DNA of 64,000 nucleotides from Candidatus Hydrogenedentota bacterium (GTDB lineage: Bacteria; Hydrogenedentota; Hydrogenedentia; Hydrogenedentales; JAEUWI01), in NCBI GenBank assembly GCA_016791475.1, contig JAEUWI010000011.1, forward strand, positions 1-64,000, read 5' to 3'. The notes below the pieces were generated by a model. It ran no database searches. It was not told where the DNA came from and worked only from the letters and a program-made list of their open reading frames with translations. The number at the start of each line of letters is the position of its first letter. The stretch's first letter is position 1. Positions 20,453-63,849 of the stretch are shown in pieces. Position numbers and translations under genes: made by a program.

Positions 20453-22093
20453 TCAGTTCCTGAATGTCCGCGTGCCGTCCCGCTCCATGTGCAGGCGCAC
20501 CTTGTCGCTATACTCGCGGCGCTCGAAGCCGGTCACCTTACCGGATTCGTCGTTCACCGGAAAGGTATGCACCGCCGTCAGGGTAATATCCCAGCCAGTT
20601 CCCTGTCGTGCGAGATCGATCTCCACGTGGCCATAGTGGCGCCCGCCCTGGACCAGTTGCCGGCCCTTCCACAATTCGGGGTCGTTCTTGTGGGCAATCC
20701 ACTGCTGCCATGGGTTGGCGCAGCGCGGATCCTTCACGTCCTCCGGTCCGGCGATACCGTCACCCGCCACGCCGGCGTCATAGAAGAGCACATCGCCCAC
20801 GCGGGAGCGCTCGAAGGTCTCGTTATGCCCGCAGAGCACCGCGGCCACACCATATTCCTGAAAGGACGGTGTGTAGGCGCGCATGGGCACGCCGGCCTGG
20901 CCGCTGCTGTCTTTCATGGACACGGGCAGAATATGCCCGCCGCTTGAATAGGGCACATGGTGGAATTGCACGAAGATCACCTGGCCCTTCCCACGGGCGT
21001 CCTGGAGTTGCTCCATGGTCCAGTTCCACTGATCCGAGCCCGGATTCAAATCCGGCTGGTCATCGCCGGGATAGGTCGCCATATCGATGTTTATGTTCGT
21101 GTCGAAATCCGTATCGTCGGGCACTCCGTTCGTCGAGTCCAGCGTCAGGATCGTGACGGGACCGTAGTCGGTCCGATAGTAGGCATTGTCATACTTCGGG
21201 TTGTTGTTTGGCGCGCCGTCGATGTGAGCCAGCGACTTCCGCCGGCTGGCATGGACGGCTTCCGGGGCATACTCGCCGTTGCGCGCGCCAAAGGTTTCCC
21301 AATTGCCCATCGCCAGCAGCAGGGGCGTGTGGGTCATCAGGGTGCCGAACTTCCCCGCGGTGTGAAAGAAGAATTCATCCCAGGCGCGCTGATAGCCGCC
21401 GCCCTGCACGATATCGCCCGCCAGCATCACCAGATCGGGCTGGCGCGCATCGATGACCTTCAGGTTTTCAATAAAGCCTTCCGTCTCCGTCACGAGGTAC
21501 TTTGTCACATCCGCAGGACGCCCCGTGCCGTCGGGGTGCTGAAAGGCGGGCTCCCACGAGCGGAACGTCACTCGCCCTTCCGGATCCGTCTCAGAGTCCG
21601 CGAACGCAATGATGCGCAGCCGCTCCGCCTGGTCCGGCGCGGGCGCGGTTCGAAACGTCGCGCTGAAGGTGCTTTCGCCCTGGCGCACCGAATACATGTA
21701 CTTCGTACCGGGTTGAAGTCCCTCCAGCAGGATCGAGTGCTTGAAGTTCGCATTGGCAAACATGTCTGAAAACTGCGGCCGCTCCGATTCCTCCAGTGCC
21801 GAATAGAGGGCCTCGGCCATGGGTACAGGCGTGCTCGTGATCTCCCGCACATCGCCGGCACCGCCCTCCGGCGACACCTGCAGGGTCCCAGGCTCCCCGA
21901 CGGTGGTGAACCAGTTGATCCGCATGCCCGTGCATGCCGGCTCCTGTAGATAGGGCAGAATGCGAAACGCCGCCAGACTCGGGTCGGCTTCGGGGGGCGT
22001 AAAGGCACGCACGTCCATCGCGAGCAAGACTGAAAACAGCAGAACAGGAAAATACAAGGGAAGCGCAAAGGTGCGGACTTTCAAGGTGCTCAT
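20453..22093 (-). CDS. Secreted purple-acid-phosphatase-like metallophosphoesterase
   Basis: Predicted 546-residue exported phosphatase. From ATG 22093 the protein opens with a hydrophobic signal (TFALPLYFPVLLFSVLLAM). Residues ~45-165 form an FN3-like N-terminal domain as in purple acid phosphatases (NWFTTVGEPGTLQVSPEG, GLQPGTKYMYSVRQG). The calcineurin-like core carries AFADSETDP, LVMLAGDIVQGG, LLLAMGNWET (equivalent of GNHE, with His replaced by Trp), FVQFHHVPYSS and AVLCGHNETFER. The GNWE change is notable, because GN[HD] normally binds a metal or phosphate. Substrate unknown. Transcribed divergently from the MFS gene. Confidence 0.75.
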   Translation of the reverse strand: MSTLKVRTFALPLYFPVLLFSVLLAMDVRAFTPPEADPSLAAFRILPYLQEPACTGMRINWFTTVGEPGTLQVSPEGGAGDVREITSTPVPMAEALYSALEESERPQFSDMFANANFKHSILLEGLQPGTKYMYSVRQGESTFSATFRTAPAPDQAERLRIIAFADSETDPEGRVTFRSWEPAFQHPDGTGRPADVTKYLVTETEGFIENLKVIDARQPDLVMLAGDIVQGGGYQRAWDEFFFHTAGKFGTLMTHTPLLLAMGNWETFGARNGEYAPEAVHASRRKSLAHIDGAPNNNPKYDNAYYRTDYGPVTILTLDSTNGVPDDTDFDTNINIDMATYPGDDQPDLNPGSDQWNWTMEQLQDARGKGQVIFVQFHHVPYSSGGHILPVSMKDSSGQAGVPMRAYTPSFQEYGVAAVLCGHNETFERSRVGDVLFYDAGVAGDGIAGPEDVKDPRCANPWQQWIAHKNDPELWKGRQLVQGGRHYGHVEIDLARQGTGWDITLTAVHTFPVNDESGKVTGFERREYSDKVRLHMERDGTRTFRN

Positions 22094-22280
22094 GAGAATT
22101 CCAACGGAGGTTCTTGCGACAGGGGCGGAGTAGAAAGCCCTATTCTCCCCCTTTCCGGCAAGTCGGGGCAAGTCCGAGTGCGCGGTCGATCTGTTACAAT
22201 AGCCGCCCTACCCATTCCCGATGCGCATAGCGCCCCTGATGGGCAGGCGGCAGCCCCTCAAACCAACCACGGAAGTACCC

Positions 22281-23531
22281 ATGAGCGATATTGCGGAAGA
22301 CGCGGTCTACGAAGAGATTGAACATGCCCAGGAAGCCGCCATCGCCGCGGCCTCCGCCACCGCCATGAGCGTCCTGGTGGCCCTGAGCCTGTCCCACATG
22401 CTCAACGACACGATTCAGGCCCTGATTCCCGCCATGTACCCCGTGTTCAAGGAAAGCTACCGGCTCACCTTCACCGAAATTGGCCTCATTACGCTTACGT
22501 TCCAACTGTCCTCCTCCCTGCTCCAGCCGCTGGTGGGGCTCTATACAGACCGCAACCCCAAGCCCTACTCCCTCGCGGCCGGCATGGGGATTACCCTCGT
22601 GGGGCTGCTCTTCATGTCCCGCGCGGCATCCTTTCATGCAATCCTCGTGGCGGCGGCCCTGATTGGCACCGGCTCGTCCATCTTCCACCCCGAAGCTTCG
22701 CGCCTCGCCCATATGGCCGCCGGAAAACGCCATGGTTTCGCCCAGAGCCTCTTTCAGGTCGGCGGTAACTTCGGGAGTTCGCTGGGTCCCCTCCTGGCCG
22801 CGTGGATCATCGTGCCCCGGGGACAGCACGCCGTCGCCTGGTTCTCCATCGTCGCCTGCATCGGCATCGTGCTCCTTTCCGCCGTGGGCCGCTGGTACGC
22901 CGCGCGACTCCACGCGGGCCGGGCCAAGTCGGGAGCGAAAGCAGCCCCGCGAAAGTTTCAGCTCAGCCGCAGCCGCACCATAGTGGCCCTCGGTGTACTG
23001 GTCATACTCATCATTTCGAAGTACTTCTACCTCATCAGCCTCACCAACTATTACACCTTCTACCTCATCCAGAAATTCGGGGTGTCGGTTCAGGCCTCCC
23101 AGGTCTACCTCTTCATCTTTCTGTTTGCCATCGCGGCCGGAACTATCGCTGGCGGCCCCCTGGGCGATCACTTCGGTCGCAAGGCGGTCATCTGGGTCTC
23201 CATACTCGGCGTGGCCCCCTTCTCTCTGGCCCTTCCTCACATGGGCCTCGCGGGAACGGTCATCCTGAGTATATTTGCCGGTCTCATACTTGCGTCGGCT
23301 TTCTCGGCTATTCTCGTCTTCGCCCAGGAGCTCGTACCCGGACGCGTCGGTCTCGTCGCGGGACTCTTCTTTGGATTCGCCTTCGGCGTCAGCGGCATCG
23401 CCTCCGCCGCCCTGGGCAAGCTCGCCGATTTGACCAGCATCGACTACGTGTTTCACGTGTGCGCCTGGCTGCCGCTACTGGGGCTATTGGCGGCCTTCCT
23501 GCCGGGAACGAGGAAGAGAGTTGATAGTTGA
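22281..23531 (+). CDS. MFS exporter, fosmidomycin-resistance (Fsr)-like
   Basis: Predicted 416-residue, twelve-helix proton-driven exporter. Family motifs: SLSHMLNDTIQALIPAMYPVFKE-type first helix, FTEIGLITLTFQLSSSLLQPLVG, GTGSSIFHPEASRLAH and GGPLGDHFGRKAVIW (MFS loop motif). Start ATG 22281 follows GGAAG; 20 codons upstream are excluded. The last three codons and the TGA stop lie inside the first copies of the AGTTGAT repeat array, so the natural C-terminus may have been replaced or trimmed by the repeat. Substrate cannot be inferred. Confidence 0.82.
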   Translation: MSDIAEDAVYEEIEHAQEAAIAAASATAMSVLVALSLSHMLNDTIQALIPAMYPVFKESYRLTFTEIGLITLTFQLSSSLLQPLVGLYTDRNPKPYSLAAGMGITLVGLLFMSRAASFHAILVAAALIGTGSSIFHPEASRLAHMAAGKRHGFAQSLFQVGGNFGSSLGPLLAAWIIVPRGQHAVAWFSIVACIGIVLLSAVGRWYAARLHAGRAKSGAKAAPRKFQLSRSRTIVALGVLVILIISKYFYLISLTNYYTFYLIQKFGVSVQASQVYLFIFLFAIAAGTIAGGPLGDHFGRKAVIWVSILGVAPFSLALPHMGLAGTVILSIFAGLILASAFSAILVFAQELVPGRVGLVAGLFFGFAFGVSGIASAALGKLADLTSIDYVFHVCAWLPLLGLLAAFLPGTRKRVDS

Positions 23532-23767
23532 TAGTTGATAGTTGATAGTTGATAGTTGATAGTTGATAGTTGATAGTTGATAGTTGATAGTTGATAGTTG
23601 ACAGTGGACGGTGGACAGTGGACAGTGGACGGTGGACGGTGGACGGTGGACAGTGGACAGCGAAGTAGGCTGGGACCTAGAAAGGTCTTGCCCACTACCT
23701 ATTGTCCATTGCCGATTGCCCATTGCCCATTGTCAACTGTCAACTGTCAACTGTCAACTGTCAACTG
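23519..23767. repeat. Heptamer tandem-repeat arrays facing each other
   Basis: Left arm 23519-23658 is exactly 20 heptamers: 11 copies of AGTTGAT, one AGTTGAC and eight of (A/G)GTGGAC. Right arm 23701-23767 is about 9.5 heptamers: ATTGTCC, ATTGCCG, two ATTGCCC, then five GTCAACT. The right arm is the reverse complement of the same consensus (AGTTGAC/AATGGGC), so the whole can fold into a long imperfect hairpin with a ~42-nt loop. The left arm starts inside the MFS gene and supplies its stop codon. Confidence 0.9.
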
Positions 23768-24004
23768 AAATTCGTAGTTCACCCCGTCTGGGTGTGATAC
23801 ACTGCCCGCGTTGCCCCGTCTGGGGCAGAACCTCCTTCCGGGCCTGCCGGTCTTCGCGCTACGCGAACCGGGCTTTCCCCAGGGCCTGAATTCGATCCGC
23901 TCTCGGTGCTTGTGCATCGCCCGCGTTCATGCGATACCCACGATTAGGGCCACCACGCCCGTCGGCCATTTCCCAATAGCCGTCAACCGCCGAGGTTCAC
24001 TTCA
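23768..24004. other. Intergenic region after heptamer array
   Basis: No gene, RNA or clear promoter recognised in these 237 bp. A CCCGTCTGGG motif occurs at about 23781-23790 and again in similar form near 23815-23825. Confidence 0.35.
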
Positions 24005-24202
24005 TTGGCCAAGCAAAACTTCAATTACGAGAAACGCCAGAAAGAAATGGCGAAGAAACAGAAGAAAGAGGAAAAGAGGCAGAAAAAACTCGACAAGGCG
24101 ACCGCTGGACTTGTATCTGCGGTTGCGGACGGCCTTGTCGCAGGCGCCGATGCGGAGCCCGATGAGAATTCCAGCAACGACGAGAATGGCGAGGAAGAAT
24201 AA
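24005..24202 (+). CDS. Small conserved-looking Lys/Glu-rich protein (65 aa)
   Basis: Starts at TTG 24005 (GAGG about 12 bases upstream). The N-terminal half is a charged helix (KRQKEMAKKQKKEEKRQKKL) of the kind found in many small bacterial proteins beginning MAK-x-x-F-x-K-R-x-K-E. A short hydrophobic stretch (TAGLVSAVADGLVAGADA) and an acidic tail ending ENGEEE follow. Function unknown; the charge segregation suggests nucleic-acid or ribosome association. A strong hairpin follows the stop by 24 bp, which supports a real transcription unit. Confidence 0.55.
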   Translation: MAKQNFNYEKRQKEMAKKQKKEEKRQKKLDKATAGLVSAVADGLVAGADAEPDENSSNDENGEEE

Positions 24203-24226
24203 GGCCCCGGGCCTCTGAAGCTATGA

Positions 24227-24268
24227 AAGCGCCCCATGCATGCCTGAGCAGGCCCGCATGGGGCGCTT
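24227..24268. terminator. Bidirectional terminator hairpin
   Basis: AAGCGCCCCATG and CATGGGGCGCTT form a perfect 12-bp stem around an 18-nt loop that itself has pairing potential. It lies between convergent genes (the 65-aa ORF and the dioxygenase-like gene). Confidence 0.7.
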
Positions 24269-24309
24269 CCGCTTGGTCACGATCAAGACCGGAAGGCGAT
24301 GCGAGGTGT

Positions 24310-35641: not shown

Positions 35642-38407
35642 TCAGCCGGACGGGGGCGGCGCGGGAGCGGGATTCCCCTCGCGTGCGGGCGGTGGAATGA
35701 TCGGTCCCAAATTGCGCTTGCCCGCGAGAACGGCGGCGCGAAACGCGCGTACGGGAAGGCGGGCATCGTCGAGCTGGGCAAGCCCCGGATCCCGTGCGCG
35801 GAGCAACTTCTCGGCGGGACCGCGATTGCCCAGGATGGCCCAGTGGATCGCGGACATACCATACTCGTTGTGCGTGTCCAGGCGCGCGCCCCGTGCGATG
35901 AGCACTTCCATGGCCCGGGTGTTGCCCAGAAACGCGGCCCAGTCCAGGGGGTGCATCCGGGCCTCGTCGTGAACCAGCTTATGAAAACTTGCGCGCTTCT
36001 CATGCGTCCCGACGGTCTTGCCTATTATATCGGTAAAGCGCTCGGTGAGGGCGTCGCTATGGTAGGCCATCCAGCGGCCGGGGTGCATGGGGTCCGCCCC
36101 GCGATCCAGAAGCAACTGGAGCAGGGCGGTGTTTCCCCGCCAGATGGCGTAGTACACCGCGCTGAAATCATTGATATCTCCGGCGTTCGGATCCGCGCCG
36201 CGCTCCAGGAGCCAGTGGGCCGTTTCGTAATCCCCGTGATATGCCGCCTTCAGCAGCGGCGTACCCCGGCGAATGAAGGATCGCCAGTCTTCCCGCGCGT
36301 TGATGTTTGCGCCGTGCCTAAGGAAGAATTCCGCAAGTTCCCGATTGTGCGCCCACAGAAAGGGCGTCGCGCCGTTGAGGTCCGCCGCGTCAACCGCCGC
36401 CCCCCGCGCCAGCAGCACGGTGGCCGCCGCCACGGAATCGACCAGGTGCAGGGGAACCACCCCCGCTTTGTTTCGGACATTCGGATCGGCCCCCCCGTCC
36501 ATCAGGGCCGCCAGTACGCCGGTATTCCCGAAGAGCGCGGCCAGATGGAGGGGACTGAGCCCCAGGGGGCCCGCTGTTTGGGGAGACAGGCCCGCCGCCA
36601 GCAGGGGGGGCACGACGGCGCCGTCCCCCTTTCCCAGCGTGGCCCAGTGCAGCGCCTGCGCGCCGTCGCGCGTGGTCGCGCCGGGGTCCGCGCCCTCGGC
36701 GATGAGGTGCCGCACCAGTTCCACATCGCCCTGGAGTGCGGCATAGTGCAGGAGGGTCGCCCCGTCGTCCCCACGCCAGGCCACCGGCGGCCCGGCCTGC
36801 AGGAGACGGTCGCGAACGCTCTCGGGATCGGTCGCGAGGGCGTGAAAGAGGCGCGCGTCGCGGGAGGTCCAGATCATGACCAGGACGGCGAGGGCGACGG
36901 CGGCAAGAACCGACAGGGCGACACGACGCGACAGGCGCGCCCGGGACGCCCAGAGGCGCCAGGGCGGCGTGTGGGCCGTGTCGGGCACTGCGGGATAGGC
37001 GACGTAGCACTGGTTGTACCAGTGCGGCCGCCCGCAGAGGGCCGCGGCGAGAATCACGGCGCGATCCCAGTAAAGCGCGGCCAATACACAGGGAAGCAGG
37101 TAGGCCGCCGCCTCGACGTAGCGCGCGATGGGCGGTTCCACGAGGATGACCAGCAGCATCTTGGTCAGAAAGAAGGTGCCCGAGAGGAAAAGGAGCACTG
37201 TCGCCGCACGGCTGAAGAAGGGACGGGAACCCTCGCCAAAGGCGCGCCGCTCCACGGGCCAGCTCAACAGCGCCAAAACGATCAGCGCCAGGAACACCAC
37301 AAGGGAATAGTCCGGGCCGAGACCAAAGCCCTCGTCGCGGCCACCGCCCAGCAGAAGGACGAGGGCCATTCGAAAACTCTCCACCGCGGCGCCCGCCAGC
37401 CAGTCGCCATACATGGGCCATTCAACGAGAAAGGTCTGGAGGCTCAGGCGGCTCATGGCCTGGTCCCGCTCGACATTGCCCGCGGCGCCTTCCACGGGCG
37501 GGAACTTCGCCTGCAGCGTGCGACCGATGCGGTTCACGTTTGCGGCGTAAATCGGTGCGATGTAGTTCCAGTCGTCGCGAAGCCCTTTTCTCGTAAGGAA
37601 CCGTGGATCGGGCCAGGCCTCGCGCCCTCGGGCAAAAACCTGCCCAAGGGGCCGTTCCCCGGCGGGAAGGCGCGATACGGTCTGGCTGTCGAGCATTTCG
37701 ATAGAAATGCCGATGGTATTCTGTCCGCCGAAAGATACGAGACCGAAGTGACCCACCAGGACGAGTCGCATTGCGCTGAAAAGCAGCAGGGGCAATACGC
37801 AGGCGGCCATGCACCGTGCGAACTGGCCCAGCCAGCGGACCTGATGGAGTCGGCCCCACCGGCGTGTATAGAGCAGAATCCACGCGGCAGGCACCCAGGC
37901 CACCAGAAAAAGGAAGGCTGGCCGCATCTGATAGGCCAGGAAAATGGAGAGCGCGAGGCCGATGCAGGGGAGCAACGTACGCGTGCCGGCGAACCAGAGG
38001 AGAAAACCCGCCGCCGCGATGGCGAAGCACTTCGCGGGCGTTTCGGGAATGACATGCGCCACCGGCACGATCCAGATCAGGGGCGAGGCGGCGACAAGCG
38101 CGGCCGGGCCCGTCAACCCGTAGGCGCGCAACCCCAGACCGAAGACAAGGACGCAGGGCAGAAGGAGCAGCATCTGGGCTTCGGGGTAGGCCGGCAAGCC
38201 ATGCCCCTGGCCGGCCACGAAGGCGTGGAAGAGTGGATACCCAAGGGTACGCAGGCCACTGAGGGCCTCGGACAGGGGCGACAGCGGCACCTGAAAATAG
38301 GAATCACCGAGCGGTGGCACGAAGGGCGCCAGAAGGCGGGCATACCAGAATGCGATACCGGCCTGAAGGACAAACAGCAGCAGCGCGGTGTAGTCACCTC
38401 GTTTCAT
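35642..38407 (-). CDS. Polytopic membrane protein fused to cytoplasmic-type ankyrin repeats
   Basis: Predicted 921 residues. Residues 1-~500 contain about ten membrane helices with a long loop (~225-330); the arrangement resembles GT-C-type or PMT-like membrane proteins, but no catalytic D-D/E motif was located with confidence. A helix at ~505-525 (VALSVLAAVALAVLVMIW) leads into an ankyrin domain, ~540-890, with at least nine repeats (for example DGATLLHYAALQGDVELVRHLIAEGADPG, LGLSPLHLAALFGNTGVLAALMDGGADPN, DFSAVYYAIWRGNTALLQLLLDRGADP). The tail is Pro-rich. GGAG is six bases before ATG 38407. Ankyrins usually bind proteins; here they would be tethered to a membrane carrier or transferase of unknown function. 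I do not know this fusion as a named family. Confidence 0.6.
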   Translation of the reverse strand: MKRGDYTALLLFVLQAGIAFWYARLLAPFVPPLGDSYFQVPLSPLSEALSGLRTLGYPLFHAFVAGQGHGLPAYPEAQMLLLLPCVLVFGLGLRAYGLTGPAALVAASPLIWIVPVAHVIPETPAKCFAIAAAGFLLWFAGTRTLLPCIGLALSIFLAYQMRPAFLFLVAWVPAAWILLYTRRWGRLHQVRWLGQFARCMAACVLPLLLFSAMRLVLVGHFGLVSFGGQNTIGISIEMLDSQTVSRLPAGERPLGQVFARGREAWPDPRFLTRKGLRDDWNYIAPIYAANVNRIGRTLQAKFPPVEGAAGNVERDQAMSRLSLQTFLVEWPMYGDWLAGAAVESFRMALVLLLGGGRDEGFGLGPDYSLVVFLALIVLALLSWPVERRAFGEGSRPFFSRAATVLLFLSGTFFLTKMLLVILVEPPIARYVEAAAYLLPCVLAALYWDRAVILAAALCGRPHWYNQCYVAYPAVPDTAHTPPWRLWASRARLSRRVALSVLAAVALAVLVMIWTSRDARLFHALATDPESVRDRLLQAGPPVAWRGDDGATLLHYAALQGDVELVRHLIAEGADPGATTRDGAQALHWATLGKGDGAVVPPLLAAGLSPQTAGPLGLSPLHLAALFGNTGVLAALMDGGADPNVRNKAGVVPLHLVDSVAAATVLLARGAAVDAADLNGATPFLWAHNRELAEFFLRHGANINAREDWRSFIRRGTPLLKAAYHGDYETAHWLLERGADPNAGDINDFSAVYYAIWRGNTALLQLLLDRGADPMHPGRWMAYHSDALTERFTDIIGKTVGTHEKRASFHKLVHDEARMHPLDWAAFLGNTRAMEVLIARGARLDTHNEYGMSAIHWAILGNRGPAEKLLRARDPGLAQLDDARLPVRAFRAAVLAGKRNLGPIIPPPAREGNPAPAPPPSG

Positions 38408-38429
38408 GGGTGCTCCGGGGATTTGGGGG

Positions 38430-38545
38430 TCTTATGGGTCTTATGGGTCTTATGGGTCTTATGGGTCGTATGGGTCGTATGGGTCTTATGGGTCGTGTGG
38501 GTAGGGCCTTATGGGCCCAAATGACTTCATTCGACCCATAAGACC
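38430..38545. repeat. Decamer tandem repeat with inverted copy
   Basis: From about 38430 to 38500 the unit TATGGGTCTT or TATGGGTCGT recurs about seven times with 10-bp periodicity, then GACCCATAAGACCCAT (38533-38548) gives the reverse complement. The two can form a hairpin. A shorter relative lies at 13979-13996 and a degenerate piece at about 45836-45851. Confidence 0.85.
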
Positions 38546-38555
38546 CATGTTCACA

Positions 38556-38646
38556 CTCCAGCCTCCAGCCTCCAGCCTTCAGCCTTCAGCCTTCAGCCTT
38601 CAGCCTTCAGCCTTCAGCCTCCAGACTCCAGACTCCAGACTACAGC
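38556..38646. repeat. Heptamer tandem repeat abutting the leuA-type stop codon
   Basis: Exactly 13 heptamers: three CTCCAGC, six CTTCAGC, three CTCCAGA and one CTACAGC. The next triplet, CTA, is the stop codon (TAG on the minus strand) of the adjacent gene, so the array ends flush with the coding region. Confidence 0.88.
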
Positions 38647-39801
38647 CTAAACCCGGCAGCCTACAAGCGCCCGCGCCACGAGGGCATCGAGATCACTGCC
38701 ATCCACCGCGCCGTGAACGGTGTCCGCAAAGCGTACAAACTCGGTGTAGATTCGGTCCCGATCGGATTCGGCCACAACATGGCCCCGGCTCTTTGCCACG
38801 TGAAACACGGCATTGCGGCCCGAACGGGCGGTGAGGATGAAATCGTGACCGTCCTTCCCAACCATTTCCGGCGCGACAAACTGGTAGTTCTCCGCCGCTT
38901 TCAAGATGCCGTCCTGATGGATACCCGAACTGTGAGTGAAGGCGTTGCGGCCGACGATGGCCCGGTTGGGCTGTACCGGCACACCCGTGGCCGCCGCCAC
39001 CATGGCACTGATCGCAGTGAGGCCGCCGAGCTGGATGCCGGTGTCGCCCGCGCCCTTCAGGGCCGCAATGACGGCTATCTCCTCCAACGCGGTGTTCCCC
39101 GCGCGCTCGCCGATGCCGTTTACCGTCACCTCGACCTGGCGCGCGCCGCCGCGAATCGCCGCGAAGGCGTTGGCCGTGGCCAGGCCCATGTCGTTGTGGC
39201 AGTGGGCCGACACGATGGTGGACGCGCCGAGAAACTGGACCATGTCGCGCACCATGGGGCCGAACTCGTCGGGTGTCATGCAGCCCACGGTATCGGCGAT
39301 ATTGATGCGCGACGCGCCCGCCTCCACGGCGGCTTCGGCACACTGGCGAAGGAATATCGGGTCGCTCCGGGTGGCGTCCTCCAGGCTGAACTGGACCGCC
39401 TCGGCCCACCGCCGCGCCTGGCGTACGCTCCGGTCTATGGCCGAAACCGCCTGGGCCCGGGTCATGTGCAACTTGTGGGCCAGGTGGATATCCGATGTGC
39501 CAATGACGAGATGCATGACCGGCGCGACAGCCGGACGCAACGCCTCCCCGGCGGCATCAATATCTCCCGGGACGCACCGGGACAAGGCCGCGACTTCGCA
39601 ACCCCCGATCAGCCCGGCGATAGCCCGCACGGCCCCGGCGTCGCCCGGAGACGACGCGGGGAAGCCCGCCTCAATGGTGGCCACGCCGAGGGCTTCGAGG
39701 GCCTCCGCAATGGCAGTTTTTTCGTGAACGTCCAAATGGACTCCGGGCGTCTGCTCGCCGTCCCGGAGGGTGGTGTCTAATACTCGAATCTGTTTCCGCA
39801 T
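38647..39801 (-). CDS. leuA: 2-isopropylmalate synthase-type enzyme, short form
   Basis: Predicted 384-residue TIM-barrel aldolase joining acetyl-CoA to a 2-oxo acid. Motifs: RVLDTTLRDGEQTPGV, IEAGFPASSPGD, FSLEDATRSD, INIADTVGCMTPDEF, HCHNDMGLATANAFAAIRGGARQVEVTVNGIGERAGNTALEE and HSSGIHQDGI. The start ATG 39801 opens RKQIRVLDTTLRDGE; 69 codons upstream belong to the leader. It lacks the C-terminal LeuA regulatory domain, as do homocitrate and (R)-citramalate synthases and short LeuA forms. The Leu-rich leader peptide and terminator upstream argue that the product is leucine-related, so 2-isopropylmalate synthase is preferred over homocitrate synthase. Feedback control would then act by attenuation instead of the missing allosteric domain. 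No other leu genes are near. Confidence 0.72.
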   Translation of the reverse strand: MRKQIRVLDTTLRDGEQTPGVHLDVHEKTAIAEALEALGVATIEAGFPASSPGDAGAVRAIAGLIGGCEVAALSRCVPGDIDAAGEALRPAVAPVMHLVIGTSDIHLAHKLHMTRAQAVSAIDRSVRQARRWAEAVQFSLEDATRSDPIFLRQCAEAAVEAGASRINIADTVGCMTPDEFGPMVRDMVQFLGASTIVSAHCHNDMGLATANAFAAIRGGARQVEVTVNGIGERAGNTALEEIAVIAALKGAGDTGIQLGGLTAISAMVAAATGVPVQPNRAIVGRNAFTHSSGIHQDGILKAAENYQFVAPEMVGKDGHDFILTARSGRNAVFHVAKSRGHVVAESDRDRIYTEFVRFADTVHGAVDGSDLDALVARALVGCRV

Positions 39802-40728: not shown

Positions 40729-43700
40729 CTACACGGTGCGCCGGCCTGTTCCCAGAAACCCGACCAGCGCCAGGAGCGAAAGCCCGAGGAGGAATACATC
40801 CCCGAGGGACTCGCCGAGCTTCGCGGTCAGATTGCAGCCCGAGGGCTCCTCGATCTGGGCCTCCAACTCCGCCAGGCTCAGGAAGCCATCGCTGTTCGCG
40901 TCGAGTTCTTCGAACTCATCCGTGCTCAGGGCTGGATAGGTCACCCGTGCCTCACTCAACGAGAGCCGGTTATCATCATTGGTATCGGTACCCGCAAAGG
41001 CATCGGCCAGTTGCTCGGCGATTTCGTCGAGAGTAAGTTCACCTTCACCTTCACCTTCACCTTCACCTTCACCTTCACCTTCTCCTTCTCCTTCTCCTTC
41101 TCCTTCTCCTTCGCTTTCGCCTTCGCCTTCGCCTTCTCCTTCGCCTTCTCCTTCGCCTTCGCCTTCACCTTCACCTTCACCTTCACCTTCACCTTCACCT
41201 TCACCTTCGCCTTCGCCCTCGCCCTCGCCTTCGCCTTCGCCCTCGCCCTCGCCTTCGCCTTCGCCTTCGCCTTCGCCTTCGCCTTCGCCCTCAGCGGAAC
41301 AATTGTCCAGTACGGTCACTGTCCGCGCAGCCATCGCCTCATTTCCACTTGAGTCGATTGCCCGGTAGTTTATCGTGTAGGTTCCCTGCACACGTGAATC
41401 CACGCTCCCTTCAACTATGACTTCAATAGGAGTCCCGGAATTGTCCTCGGCCGATGCGCCAAGCTCAATGTAGGTATCGGGTTGGCAGTCTATCTGGTTG
41501 AACTCAATCGTGTCGCTGTTGATGACGATTACCGGGGCCGTGGTATCCACAATTCGGACGGTTCTGCTCACCGTTGCTGAAGCGTTCCCAGCGGCGTCAC
41601 GAGCGGCATAGCGCAACGTAAAAACTGTGCCCACGGCGGCGTCATCGCCGATCACTGGCCCATCCGTTGTGGTCTCCACCGGCCCACCTCCCGAATCCTC
41701 AGCGTGGACACCTGGATCCTGCCACGGGGTTCCAACTTCATGATCCAGTGCTGCTTCACCTTCCAGCGTAATCACGGGATGCGTATTATCAATTTGGATT
41801 TGTACTACGGAGGCAACAGAGGGAGCCGCATTTCCCGCTTCATCCACAGCCGTCCCGGAAGCAATCGCAATGGAAATAGTTCCATCTCCGGTAATTTTAT
41901 GCACCACCGCCACGGGGGTGCTGGTGGTTCCCTGGCTGATCGCGACCTGGCCTGACGCGCTGCCCGTGGTCACCAGGCTGACCTGCTCGGGACTGAGACT
42001 GACGCGCTCCGCGTCTTCGTAGATCAAGAGAAAGGGCAGCGGGCCGGATGACGTGACCCGGGTACTTGGTTCGGTTATGGATAGGCCCGGCGCCGTGTTG
42101 TCCACCAGGACGGACGCGCTGGACCGGACCGCCGCACAGCGGTTCCCTGCGGCATCTTCCGCAGTACCCTCACTAAGCGCTATCCCCAGCGTGCCGTCGC
42201 CTTCAATAGCATCGATGGTCACGGTGGCGCGCCCCGCCGACTCGTGCTCAACACGCACCCGCCCGAGGGCGGTGCCTGTAGTCTCCAGCCCGATGTCGTC
42301 CGCTTCCAGCGACAGGACGCTTGCACCGGTGTAATTTACCTGAAATATGACCGGCCCCCCGGCGGTCAATACTGTTGAAGGGGGCCCCACTTCCACAGAG
42401 GGCGCGGTATTATCCACCAACACATCGACACTGGCCCGGACTTCGGGGGACAGGTTTCCGGCGGCATCCGCCACCGCTCCCGCCTGCAAGGCAATGCTCA
42501 GCGTTCCGTCACCCGTGGTCTTATCGATCCCTATCGAACTAGAATTCCCCGTACCTTCCGAGAAAGTCAGGTTTCCCGTGGCCGTGCCGGTCGCGACCAG
42601 CGCCACATCTTCTTCGGTCAATACAAAGGGAACGGCATCCTGCGCAGTCACGACAAACTCCACTGGACCGGTGTTTGTCAGGAGCGGCGACGGGGATTCA
42701 ATAATCGGCAGGGGGCTGGTATTGTCGACCACGAATGCGTCGCTCGATGGTGATGGGGTGGCGACATTGCCCGCCGTATCGGAAGCCGTCGCGGCCCCAA
42801 TCGAAATACTGAGCGTTCCGTCGCCTGTAATGTTGTCTACCGTGACCACGGGCGCGCTGGTCGTTCCGTCCGTAACAAAGAGCTCCCCGCTGGCGGTGCC
42901 GGTCGCCACGAGCGCGATCTTCTCCATCGTCAAAGCCACCGTGTCCGCGCCTGTGTAGTGCAGTGCATAGTGTACGGGGCCCACGTTCGTAAGCGAGGTG
43001 CTCGGCGCTTCGACCGTCAAGATCGGCGGGCTCTGGTCGAATACGACGGGCGCACTGAAGACGGTCGCGGCGAGCGGGTTGCCCGCCCGATCCACGATGT
43101 CCGACTCCAGGTTTATGCCGAGTTCGAGGCTCCCGTCACCGGCGACATCGGCCAGCGCAACCGTGAACGCCATCGGTCCACCGCTAATGACGGCGTCGGA
43201 GAAGTTCAGACTGGCCTGCCGGAATACCAGATCCGCCGCACTTTCAAAATTTTCCACATACTCGCTGAAACGCACGGTGAACTCGATGCCGCGCAGCCGG
43301 GTGGGGCCAGTTAGCGACGGAATTATGGAAAGCACATGGGGCGGCGTATCCAGAAAGGAGATTCGTCCCGCAAAGATGTCCGTACCGCCGGCACTCGGCT
43401 GCGCCTGGCCCGTCGGGCCAAGGTCAAAATCGGCTTCGTCGGAGTAGATGCCAACGGCTTGAACACCGCCGGAACCATCCACGACCAAATCCCGGATGGC
43501 ATCATTTTCATTGCCGCCGGTCTCAAACGCCGCGATAAGTGCCCCGCTCGAATCGAGCTTCGACAAGAACAGGTCCGAGGAGTAATAGCGCGATTCCGAC
43601 ACGAGCGGGAAGTAGGCATCGCCCGGATCGGCGTCCAGCGCCCCGTGGAAGCCGCCCGCCAGGTAGATGTTGGACGATGCATCGGTGGTCAGACAGCTCC

Positions 43701-47849: not shown

Positions 47850-49856
47850 ATGCGCGTTTACATTCGTTTTCTGCCGCGCACCGGTGCGGCGACGCTTTGC
47901 CTCGTGGCGTTGGCGTTGAGCCCCGGGCTCGTGGTCCCCAGCGCCCTCGCCCAGCCCACCGCGCCAGAACCGACATCTGCGCCGACACCTGGGCCGAGTC
48001 CCGCGCCGACACCCGCACCGACACCCGCGCCGACACCCGCGCCGACACCCGCGCCGACACCCGCGCCGACACCCGCGCCGACACCCGCGCCGACACCCGC
48101 GCCGACACCCGCACCCGCACCCGCGCCGACACCCGCGCCGACACCCGCACCCGCGCCTGCACCGACGCCCGTGCTTCCCGGTGCGCCCATGGAAAAACTG
48201 CGGGCCATGGCCCAGGACACCGCCGCCACGCCCGATCTGGCGGAGGCCGCACTGTACGCCGCGCAACTGATCCAGCCGACCAGCGACCCGGCGGTCTATC
48301 TCAAGAAGCTGAGCGACCTGGCCCAGCGGCTACGGGAGCGGGTGGCCACCGCGCCGACCCCCATGGACGCGGCCGCAGCCATGGCCAACTTCTTTTACGT
48401 GGAGGAGGGCTACGCCAACAGCACGGTTCAGACGGCCGATGTTTTCGTGGGGCTCGATCAGGTGCTGGACAAAAAGCAATGGAACTGCGTGGGTATGACG
48501 CTGCTCTACTGCGCGGTGGGAAAGCGCCTGGGCTACCCCATCCAACTGGTGGCGGGCCGGGGCCACGTCTTTGCGACGTGGAACAGCGACCCCGCCTTCT
48601 TCATTGAAACGACGGCCCAGGGCGGCCTCCAACCCAGCCGGGATTACCTGCTGCAATACCTCCCTTTTCCCTGCGTCTCGCCCAACGGCTACACCGTGCT
48701 GGACGAACGGAGCGCTATCGCCATGACCCTGTCGCAGATGGGCCTGGCGATGCAAAAGCTACAGCGCACCCAACTCGCGGGGGCCCTTTTTGACCTGGCG
48801 ATCCAGTTCTCCGAAACCTATGCGGAATCATATGCCGGCCGCGGCTTTCTTCGCGCGGAAAGCGGCGATACGGATGGCGCCATCGCCGATTTCCGCAAGA
48901 CCCTCGATCTGGATCCCACGTTCCGCGAGGCCTACGCGGGCCTCGGCACGGCCTTTCGCGCCCAGGGGAGCCTGGCGCAGGCGGTGGAAGCCTATCGGGC
49001 GCTCGTGTACCAGTGTCCCGACGACAGCGCGGCGGTTTTCAACGCGGGTCAGTTGCTCTACGAGTCGGGGGATCTGGAGGGGTCGGTCTATGCCTACCGG
49101 CGCTATATCGAACTCGAACCGCGGGACCCGGAGGGCTACATGCGCATTGCCTATCCCCTGGAGGACGGTGGAGATCTGCAAGGGGCGGCGATGGCCTACC
49201 AGGAAGTATTGCGCCTTGCGCCCAATACACCGGACGCGCTGGTGAATCTCGGCTATATCTTTGAGAAGATGAACAACCTGGAGGGGTCCATCCAGGCCTA
49301 CCGTCAGGCCCTGGTGGCGCAGCCCGGCAACGCACTGGCCATGGGCGGCGTGGGGCGGGTCCTGGGCAAGGCCAATCGCTATGACGAGGCGCTGCGCACC
49401 TTTCGCCAGGCCCTCCAGCTCTATCCGAAAGACGTGACCCTGTGGCTGGACCTCGGCCAGCTTTTCGAAGACTATGGCGAACTGAGGCAGGCCGCGGGCG
49501 CCTACCAGGAGGCCACGCTGGCCGATCCGGGTAGCGCCGATGCCTACTATGCGCTGGCCCGCGTGTTGCGGCAGGCGGGACTGCCGCAGGACGCCCAGCG
49601 CGCCCTGGCCCAGGCGCAGGCCATTGAAAGAGCCCAAACCAGCCCCGCGGCGGGTACCTCCGGCACGCCGCCGGGCGGCGAGACGACCGAAAGCCTCTTC
49701 AACCAAAGCCCGGAAGTAACGGCGGCACCGCTCGAAGATCCCGCACCCCCGTCGGAAACGCCGATGAAGGTGGAGGACTCCACGACGGAGGCACCCGCGC
49801 CGTCAACGGTCGCGCCCCCGGTCGAGACGCCGACTTCCGGCGAGGGCACGGAGTGA
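47850..49856 (+). CDS. Exported transglutaminase-like (SirB1-type) and TPR protein with Pro-Ala-Thr linker
   Basis: Predicted 668 residues. Signal peptide to ~33 ([11 protein letters not shown]), then a low-complexity linker of repeated Ala-Pro-Thr-Pro (~45-108) encoded by 12-bp repeats. Residues ~115-290 contain a cysteine-peptidase/transglutaminase-like core: [20 protein letters not shown] (Cys), [12 protein letters not shown] (His), plus a following Asp-rich strand, as in SirB1-like proteins. Residues ~300-590 are about eight TPR units ([52 protein letters not shown]). The C-terminal ~75 residues are Ser/Pro/Thr-rich. Probably periplasmic scaffold; enzyme activity unproven. Downstream at 49909-49926 lies a perfect 18-bp palindrome. 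Confidence 0.68.
47985..48172 (+). repeat. 12-bp tandem repeat encoding Ala-Pro-Thr-Pro
   Basis: The unit GCGCCGACACCC recurs about a dozen times with small variations (GCACCC, GCGCCT). It makes a flexible linker in the transglutaminase/TPR protein and is likely to vary in length between strains. Confidence 0.85.

Positions 49857-60957: not shown

Positions 60958-63849
<2,892 letters not shown>

Follow-up and report, generated by a model that had tools for sequence, protein, structure and literature searches.

Heptamer arrays that face a stop codon begin at it in a Hydrogenedentota genome

Introduction

The window analysed here, a stretch of 64,000 nucleotides (nt) of contig JAEUWI010000011.1 from a Candidatus Hydrogenedentota bacterium (assembly GCA_016791475.1), contains a tandem array of heptamers that runs up to the end of a leuA-type gene. 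An earlier sequence-only reading of the window had pointed out that 13 heptamers fill positions 38556-38646, directly before the minus-strand TAG of this gene, and that a second array likewise meets the stop codon of an MFS transporter gene. This coincidence of repeats and gene ends raises the question of whether the arrays meet stop codons by chance, because repeats that can terminate any reading frame are tolerated there, or for some other reason. Here, we find that, in the sampled part of this genome, heptamer arrays whose 5′ end faces a stop codon start at or very near it, their G-rich strand being the coding strand, and we consider how such a placement could have come about.

Results

Heptamer arrays start at stop codons

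The genome comprises 7.7 Mb across 529 contigs, and the arrays were catalogued in stretches totalling 1.62 Mb, about a fifth of it, some of which were picked for holding arrays. Array edges were set by a scoring rule and may be off by a few nt; the gene calls are our own, and the main statistics come from a second caller trained on open reading frames (ORFs) conserved with the congener G001. For either end of an array, as defined by its G-rich strand, we measured the distance to the gene end that it faces. Among the 26 heptamer arrays flanked by a gene on either side, 11 turn their 5′ end to a stop codon, and these start at -13, -13, -10, -9, -7, -4, -3, -2, +1, +2 and +5 relative to it. The 3′ ends that face a stop (n = 8) all lie at least 44 nt away. 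Random placement in the same gaps yields 1.56 stop-flush 5′ ends, against 11 observed, and none of 5000 shuffles reached 11. The enrichment at stop codons that the sequence-only reading had made the touchstone of its proposal is thus present, at about 7-fold over random placement.

A weaker bias of this sort is seen in a congener. In G001, four 5′ ends are flush with a stop, against 1.03 expected (P = 0.007), no heptamer 3′ end falls within 15 nt of a stop, and six other stop-facing arrays lie at least 169 nt away; stretches of G047 carry heptamer arrays at -1 and +9. In the studied genome, nine of the 12 nonamer arrays facing a stop begin at +6 to +25, and the nonamer excess within 15 nt of a stop is not significant (5 against 3.4, P = 0.23). 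Distances to start codons vary widely (10 to 359 nt for 5′ ends) and are seldom 15 nt or less.

The two sites in the window illustrate the rule. At the leuA-type gene, the 13 heptamers are indeed of exact length (on the plus strand, CTCCAGC three times, CTTCAGC six times, CTCCAGA three times and CTACAGC once) and are followed by CTA, the complement of the stop. However, this stop is not a further, truncated unit, as had been supposed, but the first three bases of a complete one, TAGGCTG (38643-38649), within the array. The minus strand reads ...CGGGTT TAGGCTG TAGTCTG GAGTCTG... across the gene end, and the array as a whole consists of TAGGCTG, TAGTCTG, GAGTCTG twice, GAGGCTG, AAGGCTG six times, GAGGCTG twice and a final GAG. 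The second case is equally real, the array supplying the TGA stop of the MFS gene. Each cluster also includes another array away from stop codons, the nonamers next to the leuA-type site and the opposed heptamers next to the MFS site, a point on which the sequence-only reading needs correction.

Most heptamer units carry stop codons on one strand only

The G-rich strand of most heptamer units contains a stop (TGA or TAG) in all three frames, and hence an array can abut or replace the stop codon of a gene. No stop was found in any frame of the C-rich strand of any heptamer unit tested, and GAGGCTG, GAGTCTG and AGTGGAC are free of stops in every frame of both strands. The notion that heptamers end any reading frame they enter therefore applies to the G-rich strand of most units, but not to the C-rich strand or to these three units. 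The nonamers have no stops on their G-rich strand. The stop content of each strand would fit the location of heptamers at or over the stop, as opposed to nonamers at least 6 nt downstream.

Five tested genes next to arrays have native ends, and two orthologous sites lack arrays

Because a stop-bearing strand terminates any coding sequence within 21 nt of entering it, truncated genes would also look flush with their arrays; for this reason, orthologs were compared for five of the 11 stop-flush genes. The leuA-type protein ends about 3 residues short of its congener orthologs, the MFS protein is 2 residues longer than its ortholog in G003, the KDPG aldolase and ABC-F proteins end within about 1 to 2 residues of theirs, and DnaB has the same final residue as its ortholog. 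Given that all five end within about 3 residues of congener orthologs, the genes tested are, on this comparative evidence, not truncated, and the arrays concerned lie at native gene ends. Pfam domains reach the protein ends, or nearly so, in most genes adjoining arrays, the exception being DUF421, which is half covered in a YetF-like protein.

Two gaps between orthologous genes are free of arrays in relatives. The stops of a convergent pair of ABC-F and metX-type genes lie 6 nt apart in G001 and overlap in G003 (TGATCA) but are 233 nt apart in the studied genome, where the gap is filled by an array of the heptamer family H2 (defined below), a short core, a nonamer array and a further 25 nt. 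Between dnaB and dapA, the ...PF TAA of G001 is followed by 155 nt free of arrays, whereas the studied genome has ...PF TAG TCTG TAGTCTG, the array running from the stop on, with a nonamer array further along. By parsimony, these array-free sites indicate a recent gain in the studied lineage. At a further gap (C8 14705), the left gene had no match in the G001 and G002 loci examined.

Few repeat families occupy many intergenic sites

The 1.62 Mb contain 29 arrays of period 7, all of them noncoding, and 34 of period 9, of which 29 are noncoding; periods 8, 10 and 11 account for 2 arrays in total. In 30 first-order Markov copies of the window no period-7 array arose, against three in the real window at an equal threshold. 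The heptamers belong mainly to two families, H1 (AGGCTGA, TAGGCTG and variants) and H2 (AGTTGAC and variants), and the nonamers are mostly GGGTCTTAT/GGGTCGTAT (N1). Pattern searches returned 148 matches for H1 and 865 for N1, with none for the reversed-pattern controls; such a control is void for AGTTGAC, the reversal of which is a rotation of itself. N1 is expanded in the studied genome only (815 hits, against 0-1 in congeners), and H2 is common to this genome and G001. The arrays thus conform to dispersed heptamer simple sequence repeat families in that few unit families recur at many sites of one genome and, as the 29 noncoding period-7 arrays attest, mostly outside genes.

Several contigs begin or end with an array, heptamer or nonamer (L041, L044, L046, L047), which means that arrays are undercounted and that they break the assembly. 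Contig 2 of G001 (L226-L230) contains nonamer families of its own (AGCAGGGAC and relatives), in runs of the same direction. Period-6 arrays in the census are all coding (20 of 20). The window has period-6 and period-12 arrays at 41038-41289, 47970-48148 and 63154-63500, the first of which codes for a long Gly-Glu run followed by a C-terminal hydrophobic segment and a basic tail, a possible sorting signal.

Paired arrays converge

Of the 12 pairs of arrays that share a gap, 11 have G-rich strands pointing towards each other; the first gene caller gave 12 of 13. Beside single arrays, an opposed nonamer-like remnant was found on the 3′ side in 8 of 28 cases and a same-direction remnant in one.

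Both sites of the window hold such a pair (Table 1). The GGG tracts of the nonamer array next to the leuA-type gene are spaced by 6 nt and fit a G-quadruplex motif. No terminator-like site, that is, a G+C-rich hairpin followed by a T run, as in an intrinsic terminator, was found in 38300-38750, and an Rfam search gave no match; as RNA, the gap folds somewhat better than shuffled sequences (z -2.7). The leuA-type protein has near-complete HMGL-like and HCS_D2 domains, and the gene has its nearest named orthologs in Candidatus Hydrogenedentota.

Table 1. Arrays and adjoining genes at the two heptamer sites of the window (for arrays, the strand is that of the G-rich sequence)
Feature	Coordinates	Strand	Remarks
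MFS transporter gene	22221..23531	+	TGA stop within heptamer array
Heptamer array, family H2 (AGTTGAT, then AGTGGAC)	23519..23660	+	begins 13 nt ahead of the MFS stop codon end
Opposed heptamer array (minus AGTTGAC; plus TGTCAAC)	23708..23767	-	convergent partner of 23519..23660
Ankyrin-repeat protein gene	35642..38407	-	start codon 19 nt from nonamer array
Nonamer array, N1 (GGGTCTTAT/GGGTCGTAT)	38427..38502	+	points to heptamer array (convergent pair)
Inverted two-unit nonamer copy (CGACCCATAAGACCCAT)	38533..38549	-	between nonamer and heptamer arrays
Heptamer array, family H1	38556..38649	-	starts with the leuA-type stop
TAG stop of leuA-type gene	38647..38649	-	opens a TAGGCTG unit, in register with the array
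IPMS/homocitrate-synthase-like (leuA-type) gene	38647..39801	-	384 aa from ATG

Discussion

Our favoured explanation, for which the chances look about even, is that the leuA-type array represents a single copy in a dispersed and lineage-specific set of G-rich intergenic arrays of periods 7 and 9, established by insertion of seeds at gene ends, slippage and selection. A short seed copied from another array would enter a gene end, through template switching or array-to-array conversion, and would then grow by slippage, and selection would remove copies that alter proteins or promoters. To account for the tight spacing, a further preference for the place where translation terminates would be required, a candidate source of which is the coding strand left single in R-loops that start where ribosomes leave the transcript. 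Several observations weigh against this scenario. Selection alone would leave the whole region downstream of the stop open to heptamer arrays, yet all 11 start at +5 or before. The flanks resemble the first unit weakly and a homogeneity gradient within arrays was looked for and not found, so that the mode of array growth is not visible. Convergent pairing is left unexplained. Moreover, all six pairs of G001 are same-direction pairs, and convergence is therefore not general even within the genus. Finally, no shared sequence was obvious by eye, without systematic alignment, in the cores between paired arrays, which accordingly give no sign of a single mobile unit.

Selection might instead act as a filter on random insertion in both orientations, the survivors being those arrays that lie between a stop and the next promoter and extend no protein. 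This account, which we regard as unlikely, draws on the fact that only the G-rich heptamer strand ends reading frames and on the broad distances to start codons, and MacGregor 2015 (PMC4679880) argues likewise. The suggestion of the sequence-only reading that heptamers are tolerated at gene ends does explain how an array in this orientation can overlap a coding end without harm but leaves the tight spacing and the convergence unexplained: insertion further downstream would be equally harmless, yet no stop-facing heptamer 5′ end is found there. Under the filter, 3′ ends right after a stop would do no harm, yet they are absent. The permutation result, some 1.6 stop-flush 5′ ends under random placement in the same gaps against the 11 seen, weakens the filter as an explanation.

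Alternatively, the arrays could be functional 3′-end or intergenic regulatory elements, involved in RNA stability, termination or G-quadruplex formation, with position and strand under selection. The fixed strand and distance to stops, the nonamer spacing that matches a G-quadruplex and the somewhat better RNA folding of the leuA-type gap are in line with such a role, as is the description by Rehm et al. 2015 (PMC4692102) of similar repeats that are transcribed and show a like strand preference. However, the sites examined are not common to congeners, the units vary between genomes, the adjoining genes are diverse in function, and the leuA-type site yielded neither a terminator-like structure nor an Rfam match, all of which makes regulation a quite improbable origin of the placement.

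The convergent pairs, the two members of which often belong to different unit families, bring to mind the addition of repeats at DNA breaks, whereby G-rich repeats would be added to both 3′ ends of a break in a gap before these ends are joined, so that head-to-head arrays reminiscent of a fused telomere remain. The excess of opposed over same-direction nonamer remnants beside single arrays is compatible with this idea, and reverse transcriptase genes are present in the genome. Nevertheless, the G001 pairs are not convergent, there is no rearrangement at the two sites with conserved gene order, no polymerase is linked to the repeats and the special status of stops would be unaccounted for; we thus deem the scenario very unlikely. 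A more specific process, dedicated to extending DNA 3′ ends at gene borders with G-rich repeats and joining them into such telomere-like arrays within a bacterial chromosome, with translation termination sites as preferred starts, has in our estimation only a slight chance of being correct. That the arrays mark rearrangement breakpoints between genes is most improbable of all: gene order differs from that of G001 at both heptamer sites of the window (22093-24309 and 38407-38646), and both neighbours are kept in none of 5 array gaps as compared to 38 of 99 array-free gaps (first gene caller), but these numbers are small and gene order is kept across the array at the ABC-F/metX-type and dnaB-dapA gaps.

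Heptamer repeats of bacteria have long been noted without a mechanism, and the studied genome offers a sharp one-direction rule, namely, that the G-rich strand starts at the stop. Combined with its weaker replicate in a congener and with the two array-free orthologous sites, this rule makes the origin of the arrays approachable through comparison of close strains.

Arrays of this kind, including overlaps with stop codons, are already known from Beggiatoaceae, Xanthomonas and Nostoc, and the argument from stops in all frames was made previously (PMC4679880). The TAACTGA repeats of Beggiatoaceae, Cyanobacteria and Bacteroidetes described there are likewise dispersed heptamers with stops in all frames of one strand, 13 sets of which overlap the stop of the upstream gene, and in some genomes longer arrays are mixed with other heptamers, another point of likeness. 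They differ from the arrays studied here in lying mostly just upstream of starts and in being short, with a copy number of two to six in the BOGUAY genome; the leuA-type array, with the unit AAGGCTG/TAGGCTG and the stop of the upstream gene as its anchor, does not belong to them.

The closest resemblance is to the GGGAATC and GGGGA(C/T)T heptamers of Xanthomonas and Nostoc (PMC4692102). These are also dispersed, mostly noncoding and G-rich, with the array nearer to the ORF on its 5′ side; those on the coding strand occur up to 50 bp from the stop or overlap it, and those on the non-coding strand lie upstream of starts. The same location near the stop and the same strand, with the G-rich sequence as the coding one, apply to all 11 stop-facing heptamer arrays of the studied genome and to nine of 12 stop-facing nonamer arrays. 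The GGG tracts of the Xanthomonas and Nostoc units are lacking in the leuA heptamers and present in the neighbouring nonamer GGGTCTTAT. Those repeats differ in their units and in a preference for four of them, the placement in the studied genome is tighter (-13 to +5), and paired heptamer and nonamer arrays, which occur here, are not described in the sections of the article considered. The cyanobacterium Calothrix, as cited in that article, has three families of tandem heptanucleotides in a single genome, a further point of likeness. The tandem repeats of Borgs (PMC9879509) share a strand-composition bias but are longer perfect units of many lengths, often in ORFs, A-rich and said to arise independently. 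Against this background, the new features of the Hydrogenedentota arrays are their tight placement, the co-occurrence of two periods, the convergent pairs and the empty orthologous sites.
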